DNA from: a virus
Virus record (IMG/VR): IMGVR_UViG_3300039106_000244
Coordinates: 1-64,000 of that record
Length of the DNA stretch: 64,000 nucleotides
Strand: one strand, 5' to 3'
Part shown: one piece after another, positions 6,766 through 48,563 of the stretch
Layout: each line of letters opens with the position of its first letter
Position numbering within the stretch: position 1 is the stretch's first letter
Program-made: the position numbers and the translations under genes
Notes under the pieces: generated by a model
Databases searched by the model: none
What the model saw: only the letters and a program-made list of their open reading frames with translations
What the model was told of the DNA's origin: nothing

Positions 6766-6833
6766 TGCTGACATAGTCCTTTATGTTAGAGTAGTCGGAT
6801 AGTGAGATATCGTGGACTACACATCTATTTATC
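6766..6833 (-). promoter_or_regulatory. GATAAATA box and paired-hairpin leader of GIY-YIG gene B
   Basis: Read on the minus strand: GATAAATA (6833-6826), 5 nt, then a 30-nt hairpin (6820-6791) with a 6-bp outer stem GTAGTC/GACTAC, CAC on the 5' side only, an inner 4-bp stem GATA/TATC with a 6-nt loop, and one unpaired C. TCTAAC, AGGA and the start codon follow. The same order and spacings occur at 38252-38319 with compensated base-pair changes. GATAAATA may be a late-type promoter box. Confidence 0.65.
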
Positions 6834-9878: not shown

Positions 9879-11369
9879 GTGATTAATAAAAAAATTCTTT
9901 GTTTAGGAAATAGCTCCGAAGATACCGACCTCAGAGCTAAACAAATTGCGTACGAGCAAAATTTGTCTTATCACGGACTATTAACCGAATTTAGAGATAC
10001 AGTTGCAGGATGTTATCAAACCAGTGTGTATGATATGGCATATGGCGAGTTGATTGAATTAGCTAATAGTATAGATGAATTAATAATTTTAGATCAGGCC
10101 AAAGAAACGTATTTAGATGAACATGCGTTTTATCAAACTATAAGTTTAGGTAAACAATTAAAGTCTATATGCAATGTTATATTTTTAGATACGTCATTTA
10201 ATGATACAATTGAGGACGAGTTAAAAACAAATAAAAGTATATGCATATTACCGTTTATACAGTCAGTTACTATAAATGGCAATTTACATACTTGCTGTAG
10301 ATCTGATAATCCTTTATCAAAATTTGATCCGTTAATTAAATATTCTGATGATAGTAATCGCAATTTAATTAAGCAGAAAATGATAGCAGGTGAAAATTTA
10401 GATCACTATTGTAAAATATGTTATGATCTCGAAGATAAAGAAATTGTAAGTCCGCGAATTACACAAACAATCGAATGGGCAAATAGATTAAACATAAAAA
10501 ATATCAATGAATTAAGTCAACTAACTGGTCCAATATATTATGATATACAAGCAGGTAACAAGTGTAATCTAATGTGTAGAATGTGCAATTCCGATTATAG
10601 TAGTCTAATTGCAAAAGAAAATCAGAAACTAAAAATTGTTAATGATACCGATTATCAATACACTGGTTTTGATATTATTGATATTGAGAAAATAGAAAAA
10701 TTATATGTTGCAGGTGGTGAGCCGACAATTATGCCGGAACTGCATAAATTTTTAGAAGAATGTATAGCAAAGAAAAAAACAAATTTTGAAATACAACTTA
10801 ATACAAATGCAGTATCATTGAGTACTAAATTTAAATCTCTTATAAAACATTTTAGTAATTTTAATTTTGAAATTAGCGTCGACGGATATGACTTGGTTAA
10901 TCAATATATTCGGTGGCCTACTAAGTGGAATAAATTAATTAATAATATTGATTATTTGCATAACGCAGGATATAAAATATCATTTAATTCTGTTGTTTCA
11001 ATATATAATATTGCTAGTTTACATTCAACTATTAATTTTTTAAGCAATCGTTATAAGAATTTGCCAATACATTTAACTGAAGTAGATTTTCAAGATAATA
11101 TATTATCACCGTATGTATTTCCAAATGCTACACTTGTTATTGTTGAGTTAGATAAAATTAAAAAATTAGATGCATATAAAAATGATCGTGTATTAAAAAG
11201 TAAGATAGATGAATACTTAGATTATTTTACAAATAGTCATAAGGTTGATTTAATAACGCTAGCGGCATTTTTTAAGTACAATGATAAATTAGATGTAGCA
11301 AGAGATATACAGCTGGTAGATTATATACCAGAATTAGAACAATGTCGGTTAATAAAAGGAGTTAAATAA
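9879..11369 (+). CDS. radical SAM protein with N-terminal SPASM/twitch-like Cys motif
   Basis: 496 residues, GTG start with GGAG 4 nt upstream. Order of parts: residues 1-118 unrecognised; 119-185 an auxiliary-cluster-like Cys pattern (Cys122, Cys139-Cys140, Cys178, Cys181); radical SAM core with Cys229, Cys233, Cys236 (NKCNLMCRMC); GGEP at about 285. In textbook SPASM/twitch enzymes the auxiliary cluster lies after the core; here it precedes it, as in four other genes at 33-40 kb. It is more AT-rich than the small genes around it, which suggests separate acquisition. The substrate is unknown; expressed with a chain of small plus-strand genes. Its stop overlaps the next start (TAATG). Confidence 0.87.
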   Translation: MINKKILCLGNSSEDTDLRAKQIAYEQNLSYHGLLTEFRDTVAGCYQTSVYDMAYGELIELANSIDELIILDQAKETYLDEHAFYQTISLGKQLKSICNVIFLDTSFNDTIEDELKTNKSICILPFIQSVTINGNLHTCCRSDNPLSKFDPLIKYSDDSNRNLIKQKMIAGENLDHYCKICYDLEDKEIVSPRITQTIEWANRLNIKNINELSQLTGPIYYDIQAGNKCNLMCRMCNSDYSSLIAKENQKLKIVNDTDYQYTGFDIIDIEKIEKLYVAGGEPTIMPELHKFLEECIAKKKTNFEIQLNTNAVSLSTKFKSLIKHFSNFNFEISVDGYDLVNQYIRWPTKWNKLINNIDYLHNAGYKISFNSVVSIYNIASLHSTINFLSNRYKNLPIHLTEVDFQDNILSPYVFPNATLVIVELDKIKKLDAYKNDRVLKSKIDEYLDYFTNSHKVDLITLAAFFKYNDKLDVARDIQLVDYIPELEQCRLIKGVK

Positions 11370-17530: not shown

Positions 17531-17857
17531 ATGGCTATGAATCGCTCGCAAGCATTAAATCACCGATGGCAGTCTAAAGAAGCTAATACTCATCGTGTGC
17601 GGTTTTTTACAAAAATGGTAGATATAGATGAAGCTTCTGACATGCACAATAATGAGATATTTTGGAAGGTTGCAGAAGAATTTAAACTAACTCCGCAGGC
17701 GCAATGGGTTGATGATAATGACATTAAACTTGCATTTATGGAAGGTGAAATATATTATACCTGGGGTAAGATGTGTATTATATACGGCGATATTACCGAA
17801 CGACAATATGTAGATTATAGTTTGCGATTTTTTGTACACCAAACGGATTGGAAATGA
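17531..17857 (+). CDS. hypothetical protein (108 aa)
   Basis: 108 residues, MAMNRSQALNHRWQSKEANT to LRFFVHQTDWK. A central segment, DDNDIKLAFMEGEIYYTWGK, reads as alternating strands. Starts one base after the previous stop and overlaps the sugar operon's first gene by 4 bases (ATGA). Not recognised. Confidence 0.72.
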   Translation: MAMNRSQALNHRWQSKEANTHRVRFFTKMVDIDEASDMHNNEIFWKVAEEFKLTPQAQWVDDNDIKLAFMEGEIYYTWGKMCIIYGDITERQYVDYSLRFFVHQTDWK

Positions 17858-28022: not shown

Positions 28023-28892
28023 TATACTGTTAACTAATTGTGTTGCTGTTAATTTATCATAATGAAACCCATCTCTTGCAAAATCAAGTTGGCGTGGCAT
28101 TGGGATAGCTAAATTATTTGTTAATAATGTAGATACCTTATCTCTATGATATAGATAATTATAATAATGGTCATATAGATTATCGTTTTGTAGTTCTTGT
28201 TTTATTTGCTTATCTAACTGTTCTAATTCTACAGTAGAATTAGGAAATAAGTTAGGCCAATCTGCGCCTTTAAAGAAATTCCATTTTTCCTGTAATATTA
28301 TAAGTGGACAAAAAATAGAATAGTCATCTGGAATAAATGAATGTATTACATTGTGATTATTAACTAATGATACATTCTTATTAAAATTTGTAAAATCTGC
28401 ATCTATATCAAATAATGCATTAATAGATTCCGAATTTGATAACACTCTACTTTCATCAGTTTGATAGGTAGCCGAAAGCGCACGTTCGCGGCGATGTAGG
28501 AAACTCCAGTGTATTATTAGTTGTTTAGGATTTATTATTTCTAATACGCGAGCAGCTTTTCTCGCTATCCAATCATTACTTGCACCATCCATACTAATAT
28601 TAATACATCTAGAATTGATATTAGTTTGAAGTATATTTGCCCAAGTATGATTCAACGGACTACCGATACCAACAGTAAAACTATCACCAAAACACCAGAC
28701 ACATTCTTTAAGTTCCTCTATAGTGGTTGGCCATTCATCGTCACGAAAGCCGCGAGAATTATAACTGTATTCAACTGTATAAGGATATTGCTTATAATGA
28801 TTTCTATCCCTACAAAGTTTATAGGAATCCATGCCAGAATTATTCCATATTTTATTTTGCCGTGTTGGTAATATAAAATCAGGTAGTATCAA
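27999..28892 (-). CDS. SGNH/GDSL hydrolase (copy 1)
   Basis: 297 residues. Block I CFGDSFTVGIG near 68-78 (nucleophile Ser), an Asn-containing DGASNDW segment near 108, and block V RDGFHYD near 280 (Asp and His of the triad, D-x-x-H). SGNH hydrolases remove or move acyl esters on glycans and lipids. No signal peptide, so it probably acts on intracellular precursors. The start overlaps the carbamoyltransferase gene by 4 bases. Confidence 0.85.
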   Translation of the reverse strand: MILPDFILPTRQNKIWNNSGMDSYKLCRDRNHYKQYPYTVEYSYNSRGFRDDEWPTTIEELKECVWCFGDSFTVGIGSPLNHTWANILQTNINSRCINISMDGASNDWIARKAARVLEIINPKQLIIHWSFLHRRERALSATYQTDESRVLSNSESINALFDIDADFTNFNKNVSLVNNHNVIHSFIPDDYSIFCPLIILQEKWNFFKGADWPNLFPNSTVELEQLDKQIKQELQNDNLYDHYYNYLYHRDKVSTLLTNNLAIPMPRQLDFARDGFHYDKLTATQLVNSILQLNRFS

Positions 28893-30391
28893 CTTAGGAC
28901 CTTGACTCCATATAAATTTTGAAAACGATCTGCATCATTACGATCGTTAACCATTGGCTCGCCACGTATATTTAAACTTGTGTTAAGTAACATCGGACAC
29001 CCGGTCCATGTATACCATAAGCACAATAGTTCACGTATGCCACTTCCATCACGTGGAACAGTTTGCACACGACTTGTACCATCTACATGTATTATAGCAG
29101 GAAATTCGTTGGGGCGTAAGCACTTTGCAGTCGTTTGCATATATCTACTTGATTCAAATCCTTTGGGCATTTCGAAATATTCATTTGCAAACTCTTCTAG
29201 TATTACAGGAGCAAACGGTCTAAACTTTTGTCTACGTTTAATTAAGTTTACAGCATCTTTAATGTCTGCGCCACGTGGATCAGCAAGTAAACTTCTATTA
29301 CCTAATGCTCTCGGACCAAACTCTGCACGACCATTGGCAACACCAACAATCTTATTTGTCATTAGCTCGGAGACAATATCCGCCACAGGATATATCCCAG
29401 GAATATTATGGCCAAGAAAAGCATCCACCCAATTAAGTTTGCCCCCGTGCGCAAGCGCCGCTGCTCCAAGGCTGCTACCAGCATCGCCAGGGTTAGGCAT
29501 AATCCAAATATTATCAAAGTCAAAAAACTCTCCTAAATGTCTATTTGCACTGCAATTAAGCGCAACACCGCCAGCATATACTAAATTACTACTTGGTGCT
29601 AACTTCTTTGCTTTGTACATTATATTGTATATTAATTGTTCTGTCAATGATTGAGCTGCATTAGCAATTTCAAAGTCATTCCAGCGAGCACGTATATCAC
29701 TCTCTGGCAGACCAATATGTAAGTTGTGCTTTAATGTTAAATCAAACTCATGCTCTATTAGCCAAGACGACAACTCATTGTATAGATGTCGTGTATTTTT
29801 TTGAGCCCACCCTGCCATGCCCATTAAAATGTATTCTTCGTCTAATGGTTTAAGTCCGACTTCTTTTGTAAATGCACTGTACATTAAGCCGATACTGTGT
29901 GGATATAGTTGACGCCATACTCTTGTGTATTGTGCTTTGCCATTTACATATTTTGCAGACCATATGCTTATAGTATCCCACTCGCCGATTGCATCAATTA
30001 CAACAACCGTCGCATCATCAAACGGACTTGTTTGAAAACCTGCAGCCGCATGTGATAGATGATGATTATATGTTTTGACTGGGAGATGATGTATCGGAGA
30101 TTCTAGCACCATCTGTTTAAGCATGCCACGCACTGTCCATGGAGTTTTTAGTTCGCTATACTGACCAGAGTAAAGTTGACGGGTCTTTTTAACTAATGGT
30201 CTTTCATAATATGCAATTTGATTAGGTGCACCGTAGGTTAATGCATCTGCTATCAACGCATTGTTTAAGTTTGAATCGTGTTTAATTTTGCTATAACGCT
30301 CAGCATGACCTGCAAAGACAATATCATCGCCTTTGATTAATGTAATTGCTGCGTCATGAAACCCAGCACTAATTCCGAGAATATTTTTCAT
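28889..30391 (-). CDS. NodU/CmcH-family carbamoyltransferase
   Basis: 500 residues. N-terminal ASKHA-like domain: LGISAGFHDAAITLI at 4-18, the metal His motif YNHHLSHAAAGF near 108-119, VVVIDAIGEWDT. C-terminal domain: YAGGVALNCSANR, GDAGSSLGAAAL, AEFGPRALGNRSLLADPR and FRPFAPVILEE. These are the full signatures of O-carbamoyltransferases such as NodU and TobZ, which use carbamoyl phosphate and ATP to carbamoylate a sugar or antibiotic hydroxyl. In this cluster it most likely decorates a sugar made or transferred by neighbours. The stop of the next upstream gene abuts the start. Confidence 0.95.
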   Translation of the reverse strand: MKNILGISAGFHDAAITLIKGDDIVFAGHAERYSKIKHDSNLNNALIADALTYGAPNQIAYYERPLVKKTRQLYSGQYSELKTPWTVRGMLKQMVLESPIHHLPVKTYNHHLSHAAAGFQTSPFDDATVVVIDAIGEWDTISIWSAKYVNGKAQYTRVWRQLYPHSIGLMYSAFTKEVGLKPLDEEYILMGMAGWAQKNTRHLYNELSSWLIEHEFDLTLKHNLHIGLPESDIRARWNDFEIANAAQSLTEQLIYNIMYKAKKLAPSSNLVYAGGVALNCSANRHLGEFFDFDNIWIMPNPGDAGSSLGAAALAHGGKLNWVDAFLGHNIPGIYPVADIVSELMTNKIVGVANGRAEFGPRALGNRSLLADPRGADIKDAVNLIKRRQKFRPFAPVILEEFANEYFEMPKGFESSRYMQTTAKCLRPNEFPAIIHVDGTSRVQTVPRDGSGIRELLCLWYTWTGCPMLLNTSLNIRGEPMVNDRNDADRFQNLYGVKVLS

Positions 30392-31033
30392 TTAAATCCA
30401 TCCCAGAGACCTAATATGTTCATAAATTTTATCCGCTACTACTTGATGTCCTGCTTCTAAGAAATGTCCGCCTGGACCACGCGGTGTAGCATAAGTCCAA
30501 TCTGTCATATTATCTTTTAACCAACCAATATAATATCTATGGTCAACTTGGTTTAGTAATTGCATAATTTGCGCATCAGTTTTAAAATCACCGAAATTAT
30601 TACCAAACGAATCGAGCATTAGATATTGTTTATTTTGTTGTTGAATAAAATGCTGTATTAATAATATGTTAATTAAATATTGTCTATACAAATAATTATC
30701 ATCGTGATATCGGTTGATATAGTTTAATAGGTCTGCTCTATATGATATTGGACCATTAAACATAACTCCACTGTGTCCGGGCCACGTATCATAAACGCCA
30801 TAGTTGTCAGCAAATTCAATTCTAGCATAATGGCTCCACGCAATGATAATCAAATCATAATCTGCAGCATGTTCTACTACGTTCCTAATCATACTAGTAT
30901 TACCAGTCGATGATTTGCCAAGATTTGTTAATTCGCATGATAATTTATTTTGTAAAACATATGGCCATGCCTGTTTAATATCTGTTAACTCATCGCCATA
31001 TGTAAAACTGTCACCAACCGTTAATATTTTCAT
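30392..31033 (-). CDS. SGNH/GDSL hydrolase-like protein (copy 2)
   Basis: 213 residues. Block I TVGDSFTYGDEL at 5-16 is clear; a GNTS segment near 44 may be the oxyanion block; the C-terminal GGHFLEAGHQVV gives the His block, but the Asp of the usual D-x-x-H is absent. It could be a weak or altered esterase. Overlaps the 33-residue gene upstream (ATGA) and abuts the carbamoyltransferase downstream. Confidence 0.82.
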   Translation of the reverse strand: MKILTVGDSFTYGDELTDIKQAWPYVLQNKLSCELTNLGKSSTGNTSMIRNVVEHAADYDLIIIAWSHYARIEFADNYGVYDTWPGHSGVMFNGPISYRADLLNYINRYHDDNYLYRQYLINILLIQHFIQQQNKQYLMLDSFGNNFGDFKTDAQIMQLLNQVDHRYYIGWLKDNMTDWTYATPRGPGGHFLEAGHQVVADKIYEHIRSLGWI

Positions 31034-31131
31034 TTGTAAATAAATGGATCACGTTTGCGTAATTCTTTTAATTTCTTACGGTATCGTATTTCTAATGTAA
31101 TTCTATTGTATAAATTCGTTAACCAATTCAT
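31030..31131 (-). CDS. 33-aa basic peptide with strong ribosome site
   Basis: 33 residues, starting MNWLTNLYNRITLEIRYRKK and ending in a short basic stretch and RDPFIYK. A very good ribosome site, AAGGAGA, lies 6 nt upstream of the ATG at 31131. The stop overlaps the next start (ATGA). The 5' part overlaps the end of the upstream SGNH gene in another frame. The peptide is a single basic amphipathic helix without Cys. From memory, similar tiny proteins ending in RKRDPFIYK-like sequence occur in T4-like marine phages, which would argue for a general phage function; the match is not verified. Confidence 0.75.
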   Translation of the reverse strand: MNWLTNLYNRITLEIRYRKKLKELRKRDPFIYK

Positions 31132-31924
31132 TGTAGTTCTCCTTAATGTAGTTCATGGCATCAATGTGTGCTGGCTCCAATGGGTGTGTAGTAGCAAACG
31201 GGTATTTAAAATCTCTAGCCCATGTATAAAATCCCTGATTGTTTGGAAAAGTAACCCACCGATTAAAATCAAGTTGATTGTATAATGTTATTATATTTTC
31301 GTCATTCATTAAATGGGTACAATTATTCAACAATGCTTCATCAACCATCGAAAATATATATGGTATTTTCTTTAATTGTAGATATTGTTGCAACATGGTT
31401 ATTTCTGTTAGCGAATTATATGTTTCCCAATATGCAGTTGACCCAATATGTTTATAAAAGGTTTTAGCAAAATCTGCTGTGCCAGTTTGTTTAGCTCGTA
31501 ATAAATGATTAGTATGATGCTGTAATATTGCTGTATTATTAGTTTTAAATTCTTTTTTTATTTGTTCTACATCATCAATGATGGACCATGGATTTAAATT
31601 ATACCAATTTCCCCAACGCTCACCTGTATCATAATCAAATCTAAATTCGTATCGGCCCGGAAATGTCCATGTTACAAAAACTAATCCTACATCTTGTAAT
31701 TTTTCACATGCATTCATAACAGTGCGGCGAATTGCACTATTACTAAATCCCGGATAGGCTACGCATTCGTACTGCATATTAAAATCTTTAGCCAAAAGCG
31801 CAGTAAAGGTTGATTGGCTAACAATTGGGCGGGCTGGTTCGGTCCCATTGGGATCAAATGGTGTAACTCCATCAGCAAGTTCACTACCGTATGTAAAACT
31901 ATCGCCCCCGGCTACTAAAATCAT
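31103..31924 (-). CDS. SGNH/GDSL hydrolase-like protein (copy 3)
   Basis: 273 residues. Block I AGGDSFTYGSEL at 5-16; SNSAIRRTVMNA near 62 as possible oxyanion region; C-terminal THPLEPAHIDAMNYI as the His block, again without the Asp three residues before the first His. Related to copy 2 (shared GDSFTYG-x-EL, a WARDFKYPFATTHP versus WTYATPRGPGGH end). ATGA overlap with the upstream gene. Confidence 0.82.
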   Translation of the reverse strand: MILVAGGDSFTYGSELADGVTPFDPNGTEPARPIVSQSTFTALLAKDFNMQYECVAYPGFSNSAIRRTVMNACEKLQDVGLVFVTWTFPGRYEFRFDYDTGERWGNWYNLNPWSIIDDVEQIKKEFKTNNTAILQHHTNHLLRAKQTGTADFAKTFYKHIGSTAYWETYNSLTEITMLQQYLQLKKIPYIFSMVDEALLNNCTHLMNDENIITLYNQLDFNRWVTFPNNQGFYTWARDFKYPFATTHPLEPAHIDAMNYIKENYNELVNEFIQ

Positions 31925-33018
31925 ACATATCCTCGTTTGATATGTTGTACTTGTAAGTCTATATAATTTGCATCAGACCAATTATACCGATAAGTTGCAG
32001 ATGCATGACTAGTTCTTATATTATACACATCTAAATGTAATCCGAGTCGGTTCCATATAATATTATAATCATCCGACCCAAATGTTCTATGTAAGTCGAC
32101 TTGTCCTACTTGCGGATGGCCGATTGTCAATGATTTATCATTTGGATCAAATCCATTATCTATTAGCCATTGAGTGAAATCTGTGAGCTCTTTTTTCATC
32201 CAAGAAAAATTACCAGGACTAAGTGCCCACTCAATATCAAAATCTCCGGCGGCTTCGGTTTGTGATCGCATCGCCGATGTCGTTAAATCATCAATGGTAT
32301 GCCCTCCTTTACCTTCATCACGAAAGACTTCGTAATGATGCTTGCCAATGGCTTTATTGACTCCAACAAATACGCCACCTGCTGGTCTATTTAAACTTTC
32401 AATTCCAAATAATTCAAAGTCATTAGCATCCAATGTAAATCGTGGTGCATTCAACCAACACATTAATTGACTAGGTCGACGCCATTCCGGCGCATGAATT
32501 GCTTTACGCATACTTAATACAAGCGACTCATACTCGTGACATAATAAATTTAGCTGGCGGATGTGCCATTTAATAGTATCAGTGGCCTGATTATAATATT
32601 TAGACATGTGTCCACTTACACCTTGTAAATCTTCAAAGTATCTATGTAAATGATTTAATTTGTCGTGTACTAATTTGCCACCTTCGAGAAATTCGCCAAC
32701 CGGACCGGGCACTATAGTATTTTCTACAGTAAAATGATCAGTAATTTGGTATCCAAGGTCTGCTTGATTTATTGCAGCTATTGATAAATTGATTTGATTA
32801 GTAATATATTCTGCATTACGTTCCGATTCGATAAATCCGTGAAAGCAGTAATTTTTCTCAAGGTGATAGTTATTTTCTATTAGATTGTTTAGGGCCGATA
32901 GCCATTTACGACTAAGCGAGCTATCAAATATATCAATATATACTGTTAAGAGTTTATTAGTTTTATTATTTTTTAAATCAATTTCAATTTGATCAAGCAA
33001 TGTTGTTGTACCACTCAT
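31921..33018 (-). CDS. uncharacterised protein linked to radical SAM genes (365 aa)
   Basis: 365 residues. No catalytic motif recognised. The first ~95 residues look like an alpha/beta domain (LLTVYIDIFDSSLSRKW). Positions 105-150 are a distinctive block (PGPVGEFLEGGKLVHDKLNH, LHRYFEDLQGVSGHMSKYY). The C-terminal half is beta-rich (NRPAGGVFVGVNKAIGKHHY) with many His and Trp residues. It overlaps the upstream radical SAM gene by 26 bases and the next SGNH gene by 4, so it is tightly co-expressed with them and could be a partner or substrate carrier for the radical SAM enzyme. Confidence 0.75.
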   Translation of the reverse strand: MSGTTTLLDQIEIDLKNNKTNKLLTVYIDIFDSSLSRKWLSALNNLIENNYHLEKNYCFHGFIESERNAEYITNQINLSIAAINQADLGYQITDHFTVENTIVPGPVGEFLEGGKLVHDKLNHLHRYFEDLQGVSGHMSKYYNQATDTIKWHIRQLNLLCHEYESLVLSMRKAIHAPEWRRPSQLMCWLNAPRFTLDANDFELFGIESLNRPAGGVFVGVNKAIGKHHYEVFRDEGKGGHTIDDLTTSAMRSQTEAAGDFDIEWALSPGNFSWMKKELTDFTQWLIDNGFDPNDKSLTIGHPQVGQVDLHRTFGSDDYNIIWNRLGLHLDVYNIRTSHASATYRYNWSDANYIDLQVQHIKRGYV

Positions 33019-34294
33019 ATACTTCCGGTCTCTCTTTTAAGATGTCTGCTAATGTATACGTATCACCACGAATACTTTCTAATTGTAGCACACGAGCCTT
33101 ACCTTTTGCAAGACTTACTTTATATGTATCTGGCCATTGCTCATCAAATGTCGGTCGTGATTTTAACTGTACAAGTATATCTTGCATAGCACCAGAAGTT
33201 TGTGGTATTAGTTCATCTAACCATGGATGTAATAACTTGCGCGGCAGTGCCAAGGGACTAAGAATAATATCAGGGCTAAAGCTAAAAACAACTTTAGCCA
33301 ATATATCTACTTTTTCTTCGTTAGCAAGCTGGGTAATGTTAATAACTTCAAACATTCCCGGCATTGTGAGTGTGAAGTCGATTCGCATTTGTCTGCGGTT
33401 AGTTGCAATTTTAACTCCTTCACGGAAGTTTTCAAGCCATTGACTATAATTAAGTCCTGTTCTAATATATTCGCCAATGCGACCAGTTCCGTCGAGACTG
33501 GCACAGATTTGCCAGTCACGTAACCTAGATAAAATATCGCTGAAGAGATTGATGCCACGATAGTCGATGCGGCTAAGATTAGTATTGTACCTTGCATAAG
33601 CATTCTTTCCATCTCCCAAATCAATTATGCGTTTCATATAACGCCAATGCTGTTCGTACATTAAGGGCTCACCGCCAACCCAATATACTTCCTCAACTTG
33701 ATGATTCTCGACTGCTTGAGCAAACTCCTGTTCAATTTGACTATCTTGAAATTTTGATATTTCGCTTCTCACTTCGGGCTTCATCCAATTATTCTTTGGA
33801 TTGTGCCAATTGATCATATTATGTTGTTTTTGTTCAGTTTCCCAAGCACTTGACAACATATCGCCACACATGCGACATTTAAAGTTACATAAGTTACTAA
33901 ATCTATAATCCCAACTTATAGGACGCATAGTTGTATAACCTGTTTCGTCTGTTGTTTCTATTACTTGCAAATATTTATTTTCGAACATTTGATCAAAATA
34001 ACTACGGTAAACTGATGTATTCAACAGCTTATCATTACATACTTCGCACTCTGGGAGGGTTTCCCCAGCAATCATGCGACGACGGACCGACCGCATGTGC
34101 TCGCTATTCCAGTGTTCATCCAGAGTTATTGGAATGTATTTGCCCGTTCCGGCTTTTGTATCAATATACTGCTGAAAGTTTTGCGCAGGTTCGCGACTAG
34201 CACAGCACATACGTCTTTCTGTGACAGGGCTTAAATAGGTATGGAGAAATGGCGCAAAACAGAAATTCTCTGGCGGCTTTTTAGGAATTGACAT
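32993..34294 (-). CDS. radical SAM protein, permuted SPASM/twitch-core order
   Basis: 433 residues. The auxiliary-cluster-like motif comes first: Cys12 (NFCFAPF), Cys30-Cys31, then HWNSEHMRSVRRRMIAGETL and Cys83-x-x-Cys86. The radical SAM core follows with Cys136, Cys140, Cys143 (NLCNFKCRMCG) and the SAM-binding GGEP at 207-210. Core enzymes of this class generate a 5'-deoxyadenosyl radical; SPASM/twitch members usually modify peptides or sugars with help from extra Fe-S clusters. No SPASM motif follows the core. The start overlaps the 851-residue fusion gene by 14 bases. Confidence 0.9.
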   Translation of the reverse strand: MSIPKKPPENFCFAPFLHTYLSPVTERRMCCASREPAQNFQQYIDTKAGTGKYIPITLDEHWNSEHMRSVRRRMIAGETLPECEVCNDKLLNTSVYRSYFDQMFENKYLQVIETTDETGYTTMRPISWDYRFSNLCNFKCRMCGDMLSSAWETEQKQHNMINWHNPKNNWMKPEVRSEISKFQDSQIEQEFAQAVENHQVEEVYWVGGEPLMYEQHWRYMKRIIDLGDGKNAYARYNTNLSRIDYRGINLFSDILSRLRDWQICASLDGTGRIGEYIRTGLNYSQWLENFREGVKIATNRRQMRIDFTLTMPGMFEVINITQLANEEKVDILAKVVFSFSPDIILSPLALPRKLLHPWLDELIPQTSGAMQDILVQLKSRPTFDEQWPDTYKVSLAKGKARVLQLESIRGDTYTLADILKERPEVYEWYNNIA

Positions 34295-36836
34295 AACCCA
34301 TTGCTAGTGCAATTTCCTTATGTGTTGTTAGCATACTTTGTTCGCGATATGCATCTGTCTGTTGCATTTTTTGTAAGAATTCTGTACCATCACTTCCTGC
34401 GCCGTTTTCAATGAACTGAATTATTTTATCAATTTCAACACGATGCTTAACATTAAATGGGTAATCATTCAATCTATCTATAACTAATTTTTGTGCGGCT
34501 GGTGTCATACGATTAATACACATAACATTTGGGTCATGCAACATATTAAAATGCACCATGTCAAATTGTTGAGTATTAACCCAGTCACATAGCTCAGGTA
34601 GATAGTAAACATTTTGTATGTTTATAGTCATGCATACCTGTGTTTGAATTAGATTAGTTTTCATTGCATTAAATTTTATAACATTGGTTTTTACTTCGTC
34701 CCACACAGCACCATAACGTTCATATTCAAATCGTGCTTCGATATTATCTATGCTAACTGCAATTTCAATGTTTCTAAATTTACCCCATAAACTTACTTCT
34801 TCGTCTGAGGGATATACAGTACCATTAGTATTATAATGTATATCTATACGTTTACTATATCCATGTTCTACTGCATAACGTAATAGTTTAAAGTGTTCTT
34901 CAATTAAGAATGGTTCGCCACCTGTAAATTCAAAGTACTTGATGTTTGGTAATAGTTCTTTTAAATTTTCCCAGAACACTTCACTTTCTCTTGGCCAAGT
35001 TCCTTCTTGTAAGAACATGTATGCACTATGTTGTTTGCGGTCATATCCTTGTACGTCTTTGTATTTTCTAGCTTCGTAATCAATTTCTTCTTTGGCCCAT
35101 TTACTGCTAGACCACGAGCCACATATACGACATTTAAGATTACAGATGTTGCCTAGCTTAAGATCAATAAACCAAAGTTGGTCAGGTTTATCATTCTTCC
35201 AATCAACAATAGGATAAAACTCTTTAAGTCTAATTCTGCTATTAATACGCTTACTAACTATACCGGCATCTTCTTCCTTCCAGCAACGATTACATGTAGA
35301 TGGCTTTTCACCCCGACGGAATTGTTGTCGTAAGTCTTGCATATATTCACTGTTGTAAATTTCTGCCAATGAACTTTCTTTTAGCTTATACGGTGTACCA
35401 TCACTTTTAGTAATCTCATCTGTTGCTAAACAACATGGGCGAGCTGTGCCAACCGGACTTGCTTCAATACTAACCCACGGTAACATACAAATATTATCGT
35501 GTGTCTTGTTAATACCTAAATGATCACGTAACTCTTTATATTCCGGAAACACTTCTTCAAATGTTTCTTTTCTCATTGAATCAGTTTGATCATTTATCTT
35601 AAAGAATTCTTTTAATAAGTGACTTTTGTCGTCTTGATACATAAATGTAATAATAGCTTTATAACCCGAGATAGCTCGTTGCAATTGATCTTGTGGTGCA
35701 AGCCATGCGATATGTTCTTCGACACGTTGTTTAATTCTATCTTTAAATTGAATTGGTAATACATCAATACGATCGCGTTCCGGACTCTGTAGAATGTTTA
35801 CGTTCCAATCCATTGCTTTAATTAAGCCAAGTTCGACCCATTCTTTATGGAATTCTGTTAAATGCCATGCATTAAGTATACTAACTGTACTGCTAACATA
35901 AAAGTCAACATTAGGACAAATTTCAATCATTTTGCGGCGATTTTCTACTGTTTCTGCCCAGTCTTGACCCTTGCGGATATATTCTCCACGAAGATAAGAA
36001 TCATCTAAACTTGCGCCTACACTTACTACATCAAATAGTTTCCAGTATTCAAACACCATCTTATCTTTAAGACGAATGTGACTAAAGTTTGTATTATATA
36101 CTAATCTAACATGGAACATTTTACGTTTAACTAATTCTTCTAGTATACGATAATGTTCTTCCATGATAAGTGGCTCACCACCAGCAAAGTAAATTTGTTC
36201 TAAGTAAGGGATATGTTCTTGCATCTGCTCCCACATATCATCTTTCTCTTTACCAGCAAACATAATTTGTGGGTGATTTAACTTACCAAATAGTTTTGTT
36301 TCTTCGGCAAACCAACTACTACTAAACAAACTACCACATGTTCTGCAGCTGAAGTTACATAGATTACTAAAGCGTATGTCATAGTAGCGTAATTTAAAAT
36401 CATCTAAACTACCATCTGGATTAGTTTTGTCTGTTAGTGCAATATGATGTCCGAAGTTTTTATTTTGGCTATTGCGCATTGAAAAGAAGCCGTTGTCTTC
36501 TTGTTCATAACAACGTGTACATTCTTTAGAAGGCTTATCTTCTAACATATTGATACGCATTTGTTTGTACGGAGTACCATTCCATACTTCTGCCATTGTA
36601 TTTTCTTTAAGATTACCTATAGGCAAATGCATCTCACCTAAACAACAAGGATATGCTCTGCCATCTGGGATACCATGCATGTGTGTCCACGGTATCATAC
36701 AGAAATATTTACTTTCTATTAATTTATATGTATGGTCTTCTGTTAAATCATCTTCATGTATGTACACTGGCTTACGTGTATTGTAATTGTGATTTTTATG
36801 ATGTACTGTTAATTTCTTGCTTGGCTCATCGCTCAT
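34281..36836 (-). CDS. tandem double radical SAM fusion, each half with N-terminal SPASM/twitch motif
   Basis: 851 residues containing two complete copies of the cluster's module. First half: Cys46 (YFCMIPW), Cys64-Cys65, WNGTPYKQMR, Cys106-x-x-Cys109, then core Cys160, Cys164, Cys167 (NLCNFSCRTCG) and GGEP near 215. Second half from about 450: ICMLPW, a PCC pair, IYNSEYMQDLRQQ, CNRC, then core NICNLKCRICG near 563 and GGEP near 640. All cysteines of both halves are present, so both could be active. The fusion suggests that two related steps are done on one substrate or that the units pair. ATGA overlap upstream. Confidence 0.9.
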   Translation of the reverse strand: MSDEPSKKLTVHHKNHNYNTRKPVYIHEDDLTEDHTYKLIESKYFCMIPWTHMHGIPDGRAYPCCLGEMHLPIGNLKENTMAEVWNGTPYKQMRINMLEDKPSKECTRCYEQEDNGFFSMRNSQNKNFGHHIALTDKTNPDGSLDDFKLRYYDIRFSNLCNFSCRTCGSLFSSSWFAEETKLFGKLNHPQIMFAGKEKDDMWEQMQEHIPYLEQIYFAGGEPLIMEEHYRILEELVKRKMFHVRLVYNTNFSHIRLKDKMVFEYWKLFDVVSVGASLDDSYLRGEYIRKGQDWAETVENRRKMIEICPNVDFYVSSTVSILNAWHLTEFHKEWVELGLIKAMDWNVNILQSPERDRIDVLPIQFKDRIKQRVEEHIAWLAPQDQLQRAISGYKAIITFMYQDDKSHLLKEFFKINDQTDSMRKETFEEVFPEYKELRDHLGINKTHDNICMLPWVSIEASPVGTARPCCLATDEITKSDGTPYKLKESSLAEIYNSEYMQDLRQQFRRGEKPSTCNRCWKEEDAGIVSKRINSRIRLKEFYPIVDWKNDKPDQLWFIDLKLGNICNLKCRICGSWSSSKWAKEEIDYEARKYKDVQGYDRKQHSAYMFLQEGTWPRESEVFWENLKELLPNIKYFEFTGGEPFLIEEHFKLLRYAVEHGYSKRIDIHYNTNGTVYPSDEEVSLWGKFRNIEIAVSIDNIEARFEYERYGAVWDEVKTNVIKFNAMKTNLIQTQVCMTINIQNVYYLPELCDWVNTQQFDMVHFNMLHDPNVMCINRMTPAAQKLVIDRLNDYPFNVKHRVEIDKIIQFIENGAGSDGTEFLQKMQQTDAYREQSMLTTHKEIALAMGYVNS

Positions 36837-38209
36837 AGTGTGTCGTACCAGTCTGCTAATTGTGTAAATGTATATTTAAAGTCTTTGCCACGACGTTGGT
36901 CGTATTGTTGATAAAAGTTCTTAAAGTCACGCTGTAGTACCTCGCGTGCCAATGCTTCGCTATGCGGAGTATCCACTGTTTCTAAGTATGTAATTAATCG
37001 TCGTAGTTGATTATATTCATATTCATGCATAAAATCTACAGCAACATCGCCGAAGATACGCAATTCATCTGCGTATTGTTTACGCATTTCTAACGGTAAT
37101 ATCAATGGGCTTTGGAAACTAGGAAAACGTAAGATGTTAAGGCTAAAGTTAATTGCATCCTCGCCGTACTTCTTTTTAAGATTAACAATCATCCATAAGA
37201 ATTCTGTTAAGCTCGATAAGCACAATGCATTAATGGTACACATAACATGAAGCCCACGTAATCGTTTACTATCTAATAACCACATAACATTTTGACACCA
37301 CTGATCCCAATCTAGTCCATCACGAATATATATTGCATGTCTACCGATGCTTTCGTTGCTAGTGTATAAATCTAATTCAGTACCTTCTGTGCTATCTAAT
37401 AATCGTTCTAATACTTCGCGGTCAACTCCTAGATTACTATTAATAGCTAAACGTGTTTTACTAGTGCCTTTGTTTTCTTTAAACCAATCAAACAGGCGCC
37501 ATGTGTAACCCGACATCAATGGCTCGCCGCCGGTAATGCGTAATTCTTTTAATGTTTTGTGTAAGTCTGTTTCCCACCATTTGAAGAACGCTTCCACATA
37601 TGGATTAACTTCATTGAGTTTGAACAGTTGACTACTATCATGAACGTGAGTAAAATGATTCCTACCGTCTGATACCAAACCTGTGTATGCACCGCTTGTT
37701 TTAATGTCTCTGACCCAGGCGCTACTAAAAGCAGGGTTGCAGTAACTACAAGCAAATTGGCAAGTGCGGTCAAAAGAAATTTCCAATGTTTGCAAATTAA
37801 CGTCTTCGTTTGCAGGTAAATTGTATGCATAATCTAAATCCTCATCATTATAAATTACTGTTTTGTATACACGGTCACTAATCGGTACAGGAACATCTAC
37901 ACCATTGTACTTAGAACCCTTGTACATGTCTTCTATCTTCCAGCAGTAATCACACCCTGCAGGTCGTTCACCCTCTTGCATTTGCTTACGTTCTAATTTC
38001 TTTTGTGGCGTGTTATGTAATGCACTTGGGTTTGTTTTAATTGCTTCTAAGTCAATTGCATGAGGTAATGGATGATGACAACTTGTAGTCTGACCTGAGC
38101 CCAACCATATAGTTGCATTGTACCATTTAGCCGCACAGAAACTAGCTGACTTAATGTCAATTACTCTACGCTTATATTGTATATCTGATTCGTTATTAAT
38201 TCTCGGCAT
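36833..38209 (-). CDS. radical SAM protein, permuted SPASM/twitch-core order
   Basis: 458 residues. N-terminal Cys pattern Cys25 (SFCAAKWYNATIWL), Cys44 (single Cys followed by HH rather than CC), Cys86-x-x-Cys89 after ERKQMQEGERPAGC; radical SAM core Cys150, Cys154, Cys157 (CQFACSYCNPAFSSAW); GGEP near 227. Closely similar in order to the gene at 38916 (AKW, SC-x-HP, ALHNT, RP-A-x-C-x-Y-C), so these two are a duplicate pair now separated by a homing endonuclease gene. No ribosome site; a TATAAT box lies 6 bp before ATG. Confidence 0.9.
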   Translation of the reverse strand: MPRINNESDIQYKRRVIDIKSASFCAAKWYNATIWLGSGQTTSCHHPLPHAIDLEAIKTNPSALHNTPQKKLERKQMQEGERPAGCDYCWKIEDMYKGSKYNGVDVPVPISDRVYKTVIYNDEDLDYAYNLPANEDVNLQTLEISFDRTCQFACSYCNPAFSSAWVRDIKTSGAYTGLVSDGRNHFTHVHDSSQLFKLNEVNPYVEAFFKWWETDLHKTLKELRITGGEPLMSGYTWRLFDWFKENKGTSKTRLAINSNLGVDREVLERLLDSTEGTELDLYTSNESIGRHAIYIRDGLDWDQWCQNVMWLLDSKRLRGLHVMCTINALCLSSLTEFLWMIVNLKKKYGEDAINFSLNILRFPSFQSPLILPLEMRKQYADELRIFGDVAVDFMHEYEYNQLRRLITYLETVDTPHSEALAREVLQRDFKNFYQQYDQRRGKDFKYTFTQLADWYDTL

Positions 38210-38251: not shown

Positions 38252-38319
38252 GATAAATAAAAATGCAGTTCACGGAAGTGGAATTCCTAACTGCTCTAAC
38301 GTTCAGGAGAACAATCAGC
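38252..38319 (+). promoter_or_regulatory. GATAAATA box and paired-hairpin leader of GIY-YIG gene A
   Basis: GATAAATA (38252-38259), 5 nt, then a 30-nt hairpin (38265-38294): outer stem GCAGTT/AACTGC, CAC on the 5' side only, inner stem GGAA/TTCC with a 6-nt loop, one unpaired T. TCTAAC, AGGAGA (38305-38310) and the start codon follow. The architecture and every spacing up to TCTAAC match the leader at 6766-6833. Confidence 0.65.
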
Positions 38320-38913
38320 ATGAATATTTATCAATCAACAGAAGTGCGACCATACATTTATATCTGCACACATAAAACAACTGGAAAATTTTACATCGGA
38401 TATAGAGAAGCAAATAAAATTGCATCACATCTAGATTTTCCTTTATATAAGACTTCCTCTAAAATTGTCAGACCAGATTTTGATAATTACACCTGGATTA
38501 TATTTGCTGAATTCTTAAATGGCGAATCCGCATATCAAATTGAGCAACAACTAATTTTCGAAAACTGGAGTAACCCTTTATTAATAAATCAACATCAGAG
38601 AGTACACGCTTCGACTCCTCTCAGAGGAAGTAGGAAAAATGCAGTATTATCTGACGCTACTAAAAAGAAAATTTCCGACGCAAATAAAGGTAAGAAGAGG
38701 TCAACAGAATTTAAAGAAAGAATGGCTATTTTACACCAAGGCAAAAAACATTCACTAGAATCAATTACAAAAATGAAAATGCGAACAATGTCAGACTCAG
38801 CAAAAGCTCATTTATCGAGTATTAATAAAGGAAAAATAATGTCAGCTGAAACTAAAGAGAAACTTCGTCAAGCTAATCTAGGCAAAAAAAGAGGAAAGTA
38901 TAAAAAAGACTGA
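38320..38913 (+). CDS. GIY-YIG homing endonuclease with NUMOD3-like repeats (copy A)
   Basis: 197 residues from ATG 38320, 9 nt after AGGAGA. An in-frame ATG at 38263 would make the conserved leader hairpin coding and is rejected. GIY-YIG core: YIYICTHKTTGKFYIGYRE at about 12-30. C-terminal NUMOD3-like repeats: LSDATKKKISDANKGKKRS, HSLESITKMKMRTMSDSAKA, MSAETKEKLRQANLGKKRG. It lies on the opposite strand between two paralogous radical SAM genes, with 2 bp between its stop and the stop of the convergent gene. Free-standing homing genes of this type cut phage DNA lacking them and spread by repair. Confidence 0.88.
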   Translation: MNIYQSTEVRPYIYICTHKTTGKFYIGYREANKIASHLDFPLYKTSSKIVRPDFDNYTWIIFAEFLNGESAYQIEQQLIFENWSNPLLINQHQRVHASTPLRGSRKNAVLSDATKKKISDANKGKKRSTEFKERMAILHQGKKHSLESITKMKMRTMSDSAKAHLSSINKGKIMSAETKEKLRQANLGKKRGKYKKD

Positions 38914-38915
38914 CT

Positions 38916-40304
38916 TTAGTTCGAAGCGTGATAGTTGCACTCCTGCCAGAAGTCTGTCATCTGTGGGAACGTTTTCAAAAAGTTTAAGCCTCTGCGTTTA
39001 TCGTATTCATTGAAGAACTTATAAAAGTCTGCTCTTTGTAGTGTAACATATTCCTTAGGTAGTTCACAACCTTGTTTCATCCAATCTACATTACGTTCCA
39101 TACGTTGTATTTCGTAATCCTTAAAGCCTTCAAAGTTATCAGCAGTTTCATCTGCTTGATTTGCTCGCATAAACGTAACAACATCTTCTAATATGCGAAC
39201 ATAACTTGCTGGAAGTATTTGTAAACTTTGATAGGTTGGGCTACGTAATAGTGGCGTATCGAACCACACACGTTGATAAGTTGTGCTGTATTTGTTACGC
39301 ATCTCTAATATCTGTGTCAATAAAAGTTTTAGTCCAAGTACGTTTAAATTGTTCATTGTAATAATAAACGTTAGGCTATTGCGGTATGGCACTACTGCTA
39401 GGAAATCGTTAGTATAGCGCATGACTCTGTCCCATTGTAGACCATCGCGTATATATTCTGCATGTCTAGGAAGTCCGCTATCTAAGCTAACATACTGCAT
39501 AAAGTGTTCAATGCGTTCACCAGTGCATAGTTGTTTTACTTTGTCTAGGTACTTGTCAAACAGTTCGGGCTCAACACTAAAGTTACTAGTAACGTCTACG
39601 TGCAGATCACTCTTGGGTAAGGCAAGTATGTAATCAAATACACGATGTGTATTCTTATCCATAAGCGGTTCGCCACCAGTCATTCTAAAGTGTTTTAGCT
39701 TAGGGTACAGCTCGGGCCACCAACGCCAAAATGCTTCAACATACGGGTTAGATTCACGTACTGGGATTGGCTTGCGTCGACCTTGAAAGTGTTCAGGCGC
39801 ATTGTGTGGTACGCTTGTTGGATACGCACCCCAACGATCAATGTCTTTGCCCCACTCCGTTGAATACTGTGGACTGCAATATGAACAAGCTAAGTTACAG
39901 CCGTGACTAAAGTTTACTTCGACATAACTTGGCACAACGTCTTGGTCCCATGGTGCGTTTACTATTTCTTCATAGTGTTCGGCCGCCCACGGTTCACCAC
40001 TGCGATAGTGTCTATCGCTTAGTTGTTTGTTATCTTCTGCACTCCAACAGTAACTACATTCTGCTGGGCGTATTTGCTCTAGCATAAGTTTACGTTGCTG
40101 TTTCTTGTAATCAGTGTTATGTAGCGCACCTGGATTGAATAACAATGGAGCACTATCAATCTCATGTAAGGGCGGATGATAACAACTATTTGTTAGTCCA
40201 GTTGGCAGATGTAAACTTACTTGTTGCCACTTAGCCAAGCAGAGTGCAGGACCTAATTTATCCTTCATGTCTTCTGCAGCTGTCAGGAAATCACTTTTGC
40301 TCAT
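38916..40304 (-). CDS. radical SAM protein, permuted SPASM/twitch-core order
   Basis: 462 residues. N-terminal Cys22 (ALCLAKWQQVSLHL), Cys41 (SCYHPP), Cys83-x-x-Cys86 (RPAECSYCW); radical SAM core Cys136, Cys140, Cys143 (HGCNLACSYC); GGEP near 208. Paralogue of the gene at 36833; the two share the departure from a CC pair to C-Y/H-H. The start overlaps the TEK-motif gene upstream by 14 bases. The substrate is unknown. Confidence 0.9.
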   Translation of the reverse strand: MSKSDFLTAAEDMKDKLGPALCLAKWQQVSLHLPTGLTNSCYHPPLHEIDSAPLLFNPGALHNTDYKKQQRKLMLEQIRPAECSYCWSAEDNKQLSDRHYRSGEPWAAEHYEEIVNAPWDQDVVPSYVEVNFSHGCNLACSYCSPQYSTEWGKDIDRWGAYPTSVPHNAPEHFQGRRKPIPVRESNPYVEAFWRWWPELYPKLKHFRMTGGEPLMDKNTHRVFDYILALPKSDLHVDVTSNFSVEPELFDKYLDKVKQLCTGERIEHFMQYVSLDSGLPRHAEYIRDGLQWDRVMRYTNDFLAVVPYRNSLTFIITMNNLNVLGLKLLLTQILEMRNKYSTTYQRVWFDTPLLRSPTYQSLQILPASYVRILEDVVTFMRANQADETADNFEGFKDYEIQRMERNVDWMKQGCELPKEYVTLQRADFYKFFNEYDKRRGLNFLKTFPQMTDFWQECNYHASN

Positions 40305-44973: not shown

Positions 44974-45731
44974 TATTTGCAGAATTCCCAATTATACGTA
45001 TCTTGATAGGCCCAATGTAATTTTCTCCAACAATTTAATATTGTAATAGCTGTTTGGTCAAGTCGTATTCCAAATATACTCATTAATTTTTCTATTATTA
45101 AATTAGGATCTGCTGTTATTAACTCCTCAATTGATAACACCGGAATATGTTTATTAACTTCTAAAAATTGTTTTTGCTGTCTCTCGAGTATTTCTCTCAT
45201 GTTAATAGTATTCATTTTGAAATATTCGTGTTGTCCATTTTCTGATATAAATTGTGTTACTTGTTCTTCTTTATTATCATTAAATGAAAAATCCATCATT
45301 GCTTTATTATTGCCATCTACACATTTAAAATGCAATGCTCTAACTTGCCATTCTAATCCTTGAGCTGTCAATGGTGTAATATACAACATGGTTGTATCTT
45401 TAAAAAAATTATCAAATTCAGAATTTATATCCCATAGTAGAGAATGGTTTAATATTACTATTGGACTTGTAATTTTATAACGAGATTGTTTATATGTATT
45501 GTAATCAAGTGCAAGCGTGGAATCTACACCCGATATAGGATTAATAAAATCTAAGTTCCGTTCAGTGACCCACCAGCCCGATAATGAGTCAGTGGCATAT
45601 TGTGCTAAAATTGTATCGTATCTATCGCAAGATTGCTCGGGCCAATATACATCTTTACTAGTTAATAGAAGATTTCTTACTAAGTTTCCGGCGGCGCCAA
45701 CATTAGCAATTAAGAATAAATCTTTAATCAT
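44973..45731 (-). CDS. sulfotransferase-like protein
   Basis: 252 residues, AT-rich. The N-terminus (DLFLIANVGAAGNLVRNLLL) resembles a P-loop-like phosphosulfate-binding segment of phage sulfotransferase-like proteins; IVILNHSLLWDI and an STLAL segment follow, but catalytic residues are not certain. The end, CWRKLHWAYQDTYNWEF, is distinctive. Overlaps the GT gene upstream by 4 bases. Low-certainty family call; coding call is firm. Confidence 0.6.
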   Translation of the reverse strand: MIKDLFLIANVGAAGNLVRNLLLTSKDVYWPEQSCDRYDTILAQYATDSLSGWWVTERNLDFINPISGVDSTLALDYNTYKQSRYKITSPIVILNHSLLWDINSEFDNFFKDTTMLYITPLTAQGLEWQVRALHFKCVDGNNKAMMDFSFNDNKEEQVTQFISENGQHEYFKMNTINMREILERQQKQFLEVNKHIPVLSIEELITADPNLIIEKLMSIFGIRLDQTAITILNCWRKLHWAYQDTYNWEFCK

Positions 45732-46624
45732 TCTCTAGCCATTATGCCTCTATTTTTAAATACGCTTTTATAATGGTGCTTAAAGAATCTACTTTGGTCT
45801 GCTGTAAGATGCGGAGCGGCTAATCCTAATTTTACATTTAAGGTATGTGACATTTCATTACATTCTTCTACTAGATTATACACCTTATGTTGATGCCAAA
45901 TATTATTCAGTGCATCAAAGTCCTGCACTTCTCTATAATCCCAATCTGTAATCATGGTCATGTATGTACCAAGTTTTGCACCGTACATTGCCCAATCACC
46001 ATGCTCTACATCCATGCCTACGTTGTGCCATATACTTAAATGATCATAGTTGCGAGCATGTACACGTTGTTCAAACTCTTGTAGGCTCGGTTTTGTACCA
46101 CGATCTAAACACATTTTAACACCTTCTCTAAAGCCTGCTCGCCATGCCTGATATGGAGATTGATTTGGGTATGTTGTGCTATAGCAATCATTCATTGCCC
46201 AATAGTTAGGATGAAAACAAAACTCAACCGCTGTATCATCTGCACCATCACTTGCCTCATGTGTACGCATGTTGTTAACAAAGTCTTTGGTCCAACAACT
46301 CATGCCACCGTTGCCATACATAAGTCCGTTGATGTGATTACGTGCTTTCCATCGAAATACTACATCTTTATTAGTATCATCTAATGTAAGTTGTAGGTTG
46401 AAAAATTCTGGGTCAGGTAAGTTATCACCGTCAATTAGTACAAAGCGTTCTGTATCACTTGCGGCTGCGGCTGCTTTATGTGCGGCATCACTGCCTTTAA
46501 CTCCATCTACACGTTTGGCCCACGGAACCATATTTTGAATCTTAATCCAAAACTCTTCTTTTTTGGGTTCATCGTAACTTAGGTAAATGCAATCTAAGTC
46601 TGCAATATCAACGATTTGTGTCAT
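45728..46624 (-). CDS. GT-A-like glycosyltransferase
   Basis: 298 residues. The N-terminal strand pattern (LDCIYLSYDEPKKEEFW) leads to VLIDGDNLPDPEF with the metal-binding D-x-D at Asp65-Asp67, as in GT-A fold glycosyltransferases. MYGNGGMSCWTKDFVN and SPYQAWRAGFREGVKMCLDR follow. The same fold and the (S/T)PYQAWR block form the C-terminal domain of the 808-residue gene at 23396, so the two are paralogous. The start overlaps the small gene upstream by 17 bases. Confidence 0.85.
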   Translation of the reverse strand: MTQIVDIADLDCIYLSYDEPKKEEFWIKIQNMVPWAKRVDGVKGSDAAHKAAAAASDTERFVLIDGDNLPDPEFFNLQLTLDDTNKDVVFRWKARNHINGLMYGNGGMSCWTKDFVNNMRTHEASDGADDTAVEFCFHPNYWAMNDCYSTTYPNQSPYQAWRAGFREGVKMCLDRGTKPSLQEFEQRVHARNYDHLSIWHNVGMDVEHGDWAMYGAKLGTYMTMITDWDYREVQDFDALNNIWHQHKVYNLVEECNEMSHTLNVKLGLAAPHLTADQSRFFKHHYKSVFKNRGIMARE

Positions 46625-46958
46625 AGTATTCTATATCCTGATAGGTGTCAGTTGGTTCTAATATTAATCCTGCATGGTTCTTTACTGTGGCATAACCCTC
46701 AGAGCTACTTACTAATTGTATACGATACCCAGGATTGTTGTCAATCTTTTTCAGTTTACCATCTACAATTGTATAGCGGAAGTAGTTGTTATATTCATCT
46801 TTGCTAACAATAATATACATTGTATCTGTTGGGTGATTTATCATTGTACACATTGTAATGATTCCATCTTCGGTATAATGTAATCTATATTCTTTAACTT
46901 CTTCAACCGCAGGTTTAAGCATTGCTAATGCTTTTTCAAATTCACTTAAGGAGTTCAT
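46608..46958 (-). CDS. hypothetical protein (116 aa)
   Basis: 116 residues from ATG 46958, 7 nt after AAGGAG; the ATG at 46964 is too close to that site. After a helix (EFEKALAMLKPAVEEVKE) the protein alternates short strands (ITMCTMINHPTDTMYIIVSK, YRIQLVSSSEGYATVKNH). Not recognised. It overlaps coding sequence at both ends, so it is part of the glycan operon. Confidence 0.75.
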   Translation of the reverse strand: MNSLSEFEKALAMLKPAVEEVKEYRLHYTEDGIITMCTMINHPTDTMYIIVSKDEYNNYFRYTIVDGKLKKIDNNPGYRIQLVSSSEGYATVKNHAGLILEPTDTYQDIEYYDTNR

Positions 46959-47796
46959 GTTCATACTCCTTAACTAATTCATCTGTAACCCAAGACTTTT
47001 CATGATAGTGAATAGGGTGATATTGATTTGTATTTGCTATACGTATCATTGGCAAATCTGTTTCACACACAACTAACTCGGGCCATGGCGTACTAGTCCA
47101 CGAGTTAATTGCAGGCTTCATGTGTACAAAGTTAATAAAGTCCATCGGCAATGTACAATCTTCTATGCCAAGTAACTTTGCAGTTAACGCATAAACAACA
47201 TCAGTGGTTGGATTGTCATCTCGGCAGTTAAGCAATACATTATCACGTAGATGTGCCCAATTTTTAAATATTTGTTCTGCTAGTGTAAAGAACTGTGTCG
47301 CTTCTCTTGTATATCTAAAATACATTAGTCCGCTGTAGGTGTCAGGTAATTCATTGTCATCGAACAACTTTCTATATTCACGCGATGCACTTAATTCTTG
47401 CTTATAATTTCTACAGCCCGAGCTTAATACAACATTCTTTAATCTAAAAGTAGTCCACCAATGTGCAATACTTCTTGTAAACACAATATCGCTTTCAAGT
47501 TTAATTGTTTCTTTGAATGGAGTAAGATAAAATACCTGCCACTCGTTACTTAACTTCCAAGTTTCAACTTGTGCTAAGTCATTCTCAATTGTAATTACAT
47601 AATCAAATACTTTGCGGTGCTGTTCTGTTACTTGCTCTAATGTATTCTTATCAACTGCTACTGCATATAAACTGCCAGGCATTGTTAATTTAATGCTCAT
47701 TGCCTGTACGTAAGCAAGACGCAAATAATCAACATCTGCTGTGTTTTGTGCAATAGTCATAAAACCTTGCTGTGCTTGATGTGGAGTTATGCGCAT
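46942..47796 (-). CDS. GT8-like glycosyltransferase
   Basis: 284 residues. The pattern of GT8-type GT-A enzymes is visible: DVDYLRLAYVQAMSIKLTMP, SLYAVAVDKNT, then YLTPFKETIKLESDIVF with the acidic metal site (E-S-D) at about 98-100, and a later SGLMYFRYTREA (conserved S/N-x-G-x-M). It probably transfers a hexose from an NDP-sugar. Overlaps the next GT8-like gene by 10 bases; the two are distant paralogues (shared DYL/DYV...L-PF/PYDETI-L-(E/D)SD). Confidence 0.82.
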   Translation of the reverse strand: MRITPHQAQQGFMTIAQNTADVDYLRLAYVQAMSIKLTMPGSLYAVAVDKNTLEQVTEQHRKVFDYVITIENDLAQVETWKLSNEWQVFYLTPFKETIKLESDIVFTRSIAHWWTTFRLKNVVLSSGCRNYKQELSASREYRKLFDDNELPDTYSGLMYFRYTREATQFFTLAEQIFKNWAHLRDNVLLNCRDDNPTTDVVYALTAKLLGIEDCTLPMDFINFVHMKPAINSWTSTPWPELVVCETDLPMIRIANTNQYHPIHYHEKSWVTDELVKEYEHELLK

Positions 47797-48563
47797 ATTG
47801 TATCTACTAGTTTATCAAATTCTGCACTTAATAAGTAATCTTTATCCATTATGTGTACGTTTTGCTTGGCAACGACATGTGCTATATTTTCTTCACGTAC
47901 AACCATCTTTTCACCTGTTATTTCGATGTTTTTAACTAGTTTATCTATAGTTAGCATAGTGAAAGGGATACTTTGCGATAGGTCAGTTGTGTAACCACTA
48001 ATAATGTTATTAGCAATTGCAAATGCGTAATCGTTGCGGAAATTATTTTCTCTTAATTGATACAACTTTTGATAGTAAGCATAGTTGCGTTCAATTCTGC
48101 CCACTAAGTCAAATAATGCTTTTGTTTTATCTGTGCGTTTAAAGGTTATAGCAGTTGCCCATACATAATCTAAACTTAGTTGCCCCATATTACCCGACAT
48201 TGATTGTGTAGGACTTTGATTGTGATGCATTAATCTATAATCAATAGTTGTATTAAGTATGTTTAATAAACTTGTATCAAACTGTAAGTAATCACTGTCA
48301 AGTAATATAGTTTCATCATATGGGCTAAGTTCATAAGCACGATATCTACCACCATTCTTCCATTGTGTGCCGCTGGCATAACCAGTTCGATGGTTGTCTG
48401 CGGAATCTACGCCAGTGTTGGTTATAATTGTAGTGGGTAGATTTAATGTATGCTTTATTAGTCGTGCGGCTTGCTCAGCGATTTTAACGTAATCAACTGT
48501 ATCTGTATTGACTGCAAATAGTATTACGCCCTTAGACTTTTCTTGCACGTTTAATTTCTTCAA
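47787..48563 (-). CDS. GT8-like glycosyltransferase
   Basis: 258 residues. GVILFAVNTDTVDYVKIAEQ at 12-31, a donor segment LPTTIITNTG, YELSPYDETILLDSDYLQFD with the D-x-D-type metal site (LDSD near 94-97), and a final domain with DYAFAIANNIISG. Tandem paralogue of the gene at 46942. Overlaps the gene upstream by 32 bases. Confidence 0.82.
   Translation of the reverse strand: MKKLNVQEKSKGVILFAVNTDTVDYVKIAEQAARLIKHTLNLPTTIITNTGVDSADNHRTGYASGTQWKNGGRYRAYELSPYDETILLDSDYLQFDTSLLNILNTTIDYRLMHHNQSPTQSMSGNMGQLSLDYVWATAITFKRTDKTKALFDLVGRIERNYAYYQKLYQLRENNFRNDYAFAIANNIISGYTTDLSQSIPFTMLTIDKLVKNIEITGEKMVVREENIAHVVAKQNVHIMDKDYLLSAEFDKLVDTICA

Follow-up and report, generated by a model that had tools for sequence, protein, structure and literature searches.

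Repeated joining of two adjacent, anciently diverged radical-SAM genes within a twitch enzyme array of large T4-like phages

FO synthase (FbiC) is a fusion of CofG and CofH, which are encoded by separate genes in other organisms, and each of its radical-SAM domains makes its own 5′-deoxyadenosyl radical on one pathway (PMC11917521). In classical SPASM/twitch enzymes such as BtrN and MoaA, the auxiliary-cluster domain is a C-terminal extension; BtrN is a twitch radical-SAM dehydrogenase that oxidizes an aminocyclitol, and its auxiliary cluster has been proposed to be the electron acceptor (PMC9012708). Besides, 12 radical-SAM genes have been described in one T4-like viral genome from the environment (Nishimura et al., 2017; PMC5332604). 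Neither a chain with two radical-SAM domains nor a T4-like genome rich in radical-SAM genes is thus without precedent.

We analysed a window of 64,000 nucleotides (positions 1 to 64,000) of the IMG/VR record IMGVR_UViG_3300039106_000244, a 117-kb virus contig with T4-like major head, portal, tail sheath and baseplate proteins. It contains a gene for a radical-SAM protein with two units, here called N and C (Table 1). Like FbiC, this protein combines in one chain two radical-SAM domains that are encoded by two genes elsewhere, and the view of the first-pass annotation that two fused radical-SAM cores are unusual needs to be qualified by this characterized precedent. FbiC makes FO, and the phage fusion differs from it in having about three origins. 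Of 31 NCBIfam matches, the 25 listed include neither a CofG nor a CofH model, and to our knowledge the units of FbiC are not twitch units. Similar to BtrN, each phage half has one predicted auxiliary cluster with four cysteine ligands. In contrast to BtrN and the classical layout, the auxiliary-cluster cysteines are located N-terminal to the CxxxCxxC core in both halves, as the family model NF033640 (N_Twi_rSAM) requires. The virus resembles, by description, the genome of Nishimura et al. (2017) in being a T4-like phage with many radical-SAM genes; the parts of that account which describe the 12-gene genome name no array order, twitch position or fusion (PMC5332604). No description of the array, its gene order or the N–C fusion was found in the literature searched.

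Table 1. Coordinates of the fused gene, its parts and its neighbours in the window; fractions give the number of the 74 loci with the gene near the array.
Feature	Position	Strand	Remarks
Nol/NodU-type carbamoyltransferase	28889..30391	-	Pfam and PHROGs; 58/74
SGNH-like protein, DUF6071	30392..31033	-	sub-threshold GDSL lipase hit; 45/74
SGNH-like protein	31103..31924	-	GDSFTYG motif by eye, no Pfam hit; 41/74
365-aa protein	31921..33018	-	beside unit E; 64/74
Unit E, single N_Twi_rSAM paralogue	32993..34294	-	downstream; 14-nt overlap with fused gene
Fused N–C radical-SAM gene	34281..36836	-	851 aa; two NF033640 units
C unit, aa 441–851	34281..35516	-	N-terminal twitch C450, C469, C515, C518; core C565, C569, C572; GGEP 639–642
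13-residue linker RDHLGINKTHDNI, aa 437–449	35490..35528	-	overlapping stop and start codons at this place in split relatives
N unit, aa 1–440	35517..36836	-	N-terminal twitch C46, C65, C106, C109; core C160, C164, C167; GGEP 219–222
Unit B, single N_Twi_rSAM paralogue	36833..38209	-	upstream; 4-nt overlap with fused gene
Unit A, single N_Twi_rSAM paralogue	38916..40304	-	upstream of fused gene
Sixth N_Twi_rSAM unit	9879..11369	+	NF033640 match
298-aa glycosyltransferase-like protein	45728..46624	-	DGD motif by eye, no database match; 66/74
284-aa GT-A-type glycosyltransferase	46942..47796	-	profile match to glycogenin, E 7.6e-5; 62/74
258-aa glycosyltransferase-like protein	47787..48563	-	DSD motif by eye, no database match; 53/74

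The 851 codons of the fused ORF were uninterrupted by any internal stop, and NF033640 (curated cutoff for membership 170 bits) matched the ORF twice over the full profile length with 394 and 337 bits, both halves above the cutoff, the combined score being 719.6 bits. The family model covers one unit, whereas the phage protein holds two in one chain, and the reading of the gene as a tandem fusion of two complete twitch radical-SAM units was thereby borne out. Both halves showed the features of the radical SAM superfamily (PF04055), i.e., CxxxCxxC, a GGE-type SAM motif and a partial TIM barrel, and the four auxiliary-cluster cysteines, CxxxCxxC and GGEP were invariant in both halves of every aligned fused relative. 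All N and C orthologues kept these residues as well, and so did the paralogues of groups A, B, and E, one E member without the P of GGEP being the exception. Each half has the cysteine ligands expected for one 4Fe-4S cluster that cleaves SAM and for a single auxiliary cluster with full ligation. In pairs with unsaturated synonymous sites, dN/dS (NG86) was 0.025–0.059 for N and 0.036–0.084 for C; both halves are under strong purifying selection. With all seven cluster cysteines and GGEP in each half, both look intact, in line with the first-pass annotation, and the loss of SAM-site residues from one half was looked for in the alignment and not found.

Most relatives carry two genes, which could point to a frameshift, sequencing or assembly artefact joining them in the window. 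However, the fusion with an identical linker recurs on 14 other viral contigs, two more junctions occur elsewhere, and both halves are under purifying selection, which rules this out for the window clade; the chance of such an artefact is practically negligible.

In viral relatives, the genes of a five-gene array followed one another in the constant order A-B-N-C-E, and additional diverged units were often interposed. All array members matched NF033640 over the full profile and above the cutoff, and the radical-SAM units of the window were 18–36% identical in pairwise comparisons. The single-unit paralogues noted on both sides of the fusion were present, A and B upstream and E downstream. A tree of 130 units divided them into five orthologous groups, which are older than the divergence of these phages. 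Among the relatives of the window, the N parts of fused proteins formed one clade inside their split orthologues, and so did the C parts inside theirs. The phylogeny of the halves together with the single-unit paralogues, suggested as a check, was thus informative in that the halves belong to two separate orthologous groups and are not recent duplicates; a recent internal duplication was excluded on these grounds and by the 27–29% identity between the halves. Local duplication, proposed as the way in which the family grew, is a probable origin of the array, though an old one, given the low identity among units and the age of the groups. Since most relatives encode N and C separately and the two share so little identity, the fusion joined two ancient paralogues, and any dimer fixed in one chain, as the first-pass annotation had envisaged, would therefore be a heterodimer.

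Other observations were made on genes of this family and their surroundings. Between A and B, on the opposite strand, there is an ORF with NUMOD3 (38263–38913) and a sub-threshold GIY-YIG match. None of the other 73 loci has it, and there A and B frequently share an overlap of 17 nt; the ORF resembles a homing endonuclease gene inserted at this place. Another ORF with NUMOD3 is located at 6076–6774. The record holds at least eight radical-SAM places, and a B12-binding radical-SAM protein is encoded at 126–2135. Two relatives (L055 and L056) lie on contigs of 320 and 354 kb with 11–12 family matches each, and the sole match in bacterial genomes was to a Bacteriovoracaceae MAG contig, possibly a binned phage contig (L125).

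Fused and split states as well as neighbours were counted in 74 distinct N–C pairs. N and C were split in 62 and fused in 12, and no other neighbouring pair of the five array genes was fused in any locus. A tree from concatenated N and C required three fusion origins: the clade of the window (9 rows), L079/L087, and L086. A careful tree of 32 rows gave three changes across the whole 5–95% bootstrap range (3–3). A single fusion origin was rejected (AU test, p = 1.2e-15), and so was an origin shared by L086, a long branch, and the window clade (AU, p = 0.008). Three different linkers span one and the same pair of landmarks, with lengths of 13, 10, and 9 residues (39, 30, and 27 nt); two of them were searched for, the 13-residue type of the window being found on the 14 contigs mentioned above and the 27-nt type on three. 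The three changes on the tree could also be one gain and two losses, but gains are preferred, because the linkers are distinct and split outgroups are many. N and C were joined independently at least two times, probably three, and always N with C. We therefore regard as nearly certain a history of repeated, lineage-specific joining of two adjacent, anciently diverged array enzymes in large T4-like phages.

Fusion of the same two genes again and again suggests that N and C work as a pair, either as a stable heterodimer or in two consecutive steps, which we consider rather likely. The fusion could instead be a nearly neutral by-product of gene overlap, creating neither channelling nor a new interaction. 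The two genes overlap in 58 of the 62 split pairs, mostly out of frame and with C most often in one same frame relative to N; as their stop and start codons share a few bases, small indels would suffice to join the frames. If every overlapping junction were equally fusible, three fusions all at N–C would have a p of about 0.05, so that the preference for N–C is only suggestive, and a mirror-tree style distance correlation gave no N–C-specific signal (partial r 0.20, below A–B, B–E, and C–E). On the other hand, B and N overlap nearly as often (56/71) and were never found fused, and the fused clade of the window retains the fusion down to 77% identity, with synonymous sites saturated in some pairs. 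We consider a neutral origin improbable, and a working pair of N and C is preferred.

The AlphaFold2 model of the fused protein had a mean pLDDT of 87.9 and a pTM of 0.56, with linker residues 441–445 below 50. Both halves were modelled as radical-SAM barrels. Given the pTM and the low pLDDT of the linker, no defined mutual arrangement of the halves could be derived, and the inter-domain contacts that had been suggested as a check yielded no confident placement of one half against the other. A 974-aa viral protein in BFVD aligned with the model over 810 columns, and further double-unit proteins may therefore exist; a structural relative of a single unit is present in Vibrio phage KVP40. A PDB sequence search with the single fused protein gave no match, and the twitch region matched BtrN weakly by profile (E 0.016). 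Fold matches in the PDB were found at Z 10–12.6, the best including peptide enzymes (SuiB, SkfB, and anSME) and sugar enzymes (BlsE and DesII) with tied Z. These matches leave the choice between a sugar and a peptide substrate undecided.

The array is situated among glycosyltransferase-like, NodU-type carbamoyltransferase and SGNH-like genes and adjoins tail genes. Searches of Pfam, PHROGs and PDB sequences did not identify its 365-aa neighbour beside E (E 0.15 for the best match in the PDB profile search). The window also holds two DegT aminotransferases, two nucleotide-sugar epimerases and one PIG-L protein; together with the glycosyltransferase-like and carbamoyltransferase genes, these favour a sugar substrate. 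They form a sugar block at 17848–23436, in which the epimerases and aminotransferases lie around GFO/IDH and PIG-L genes and which is rare near other arrays. Alternatively, the array might modify a protein or peptide, either in a RiPP-like manner or to mature a virion protein, and N and C would then introduce two radical-made changes into one polypeptide. Peptide-acting SuiB, SkfB, anSME, and EpeE are among the nearest solved folds, Pfam labels the cysteine domain of the fused protein as SPASM, and a very large tail-side ORF (53447–65896) and tail genes adjoin the module. Sugar-acting BlsE and DesII score equally, however, and the conserved neighbours are glycosyltransferase-like and carbamoyltransferase genes. 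Moreover, coding sequence makes up 98.8% of the module and no gap exceeds 77 nt, which leaves no room for an unannotated precursor between genes, and a RiPP precursor inside the module was excluded. A peptide substrate is thus judged unlikely, and a sugar is favoured. The very large ORF leaves the window at 64000 and encodes about 4149 aa when L122:1–1896 is included; it has weak CBM5/12 and FG-GAP matches.

Under the favoured reading, each half would cleave SAM and then abstract a hydrogen atom from the substrate, passing an electron to its own four-cysteine auxiliary cluster, as proposed for BtrN, with net oxidation as the result. N and C may form a heterodimer or catalyse consecutive steps, and fusion would make the pair stoichiometric. 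Our best guess is that they make paired oxidations on a phage-made glycan; with lower certainty, the neighbourhood suggests as substrate a sugar or glycan that the glycosyltransferases and the carbamoyltransferase of the module would assemble, probably for the virion or tail surface. Taken as a whole, i.e., the fusion history, the working pair and a glycan substrate deduced from the module, this reading has in our estimate an even chance of being correct. A wider and rather doubtful proposal is that five or more specialised twitch radical-SAM enzymes constitute a sequential assembly line on one virion-bound glycan, in which N–C would be a double-radical heterodimer and several separate fusions would have made this pairing permanent.

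The repeated fusion of the same two genes provides a sequence-level hint as to which array enzymes cooperate, and a concrete pair to express. Should the substrate indeed be a glycan, radical chemistry would give these phages a route to unusual surface sugars, and the search for the substrate would start most easily from the fused protein.
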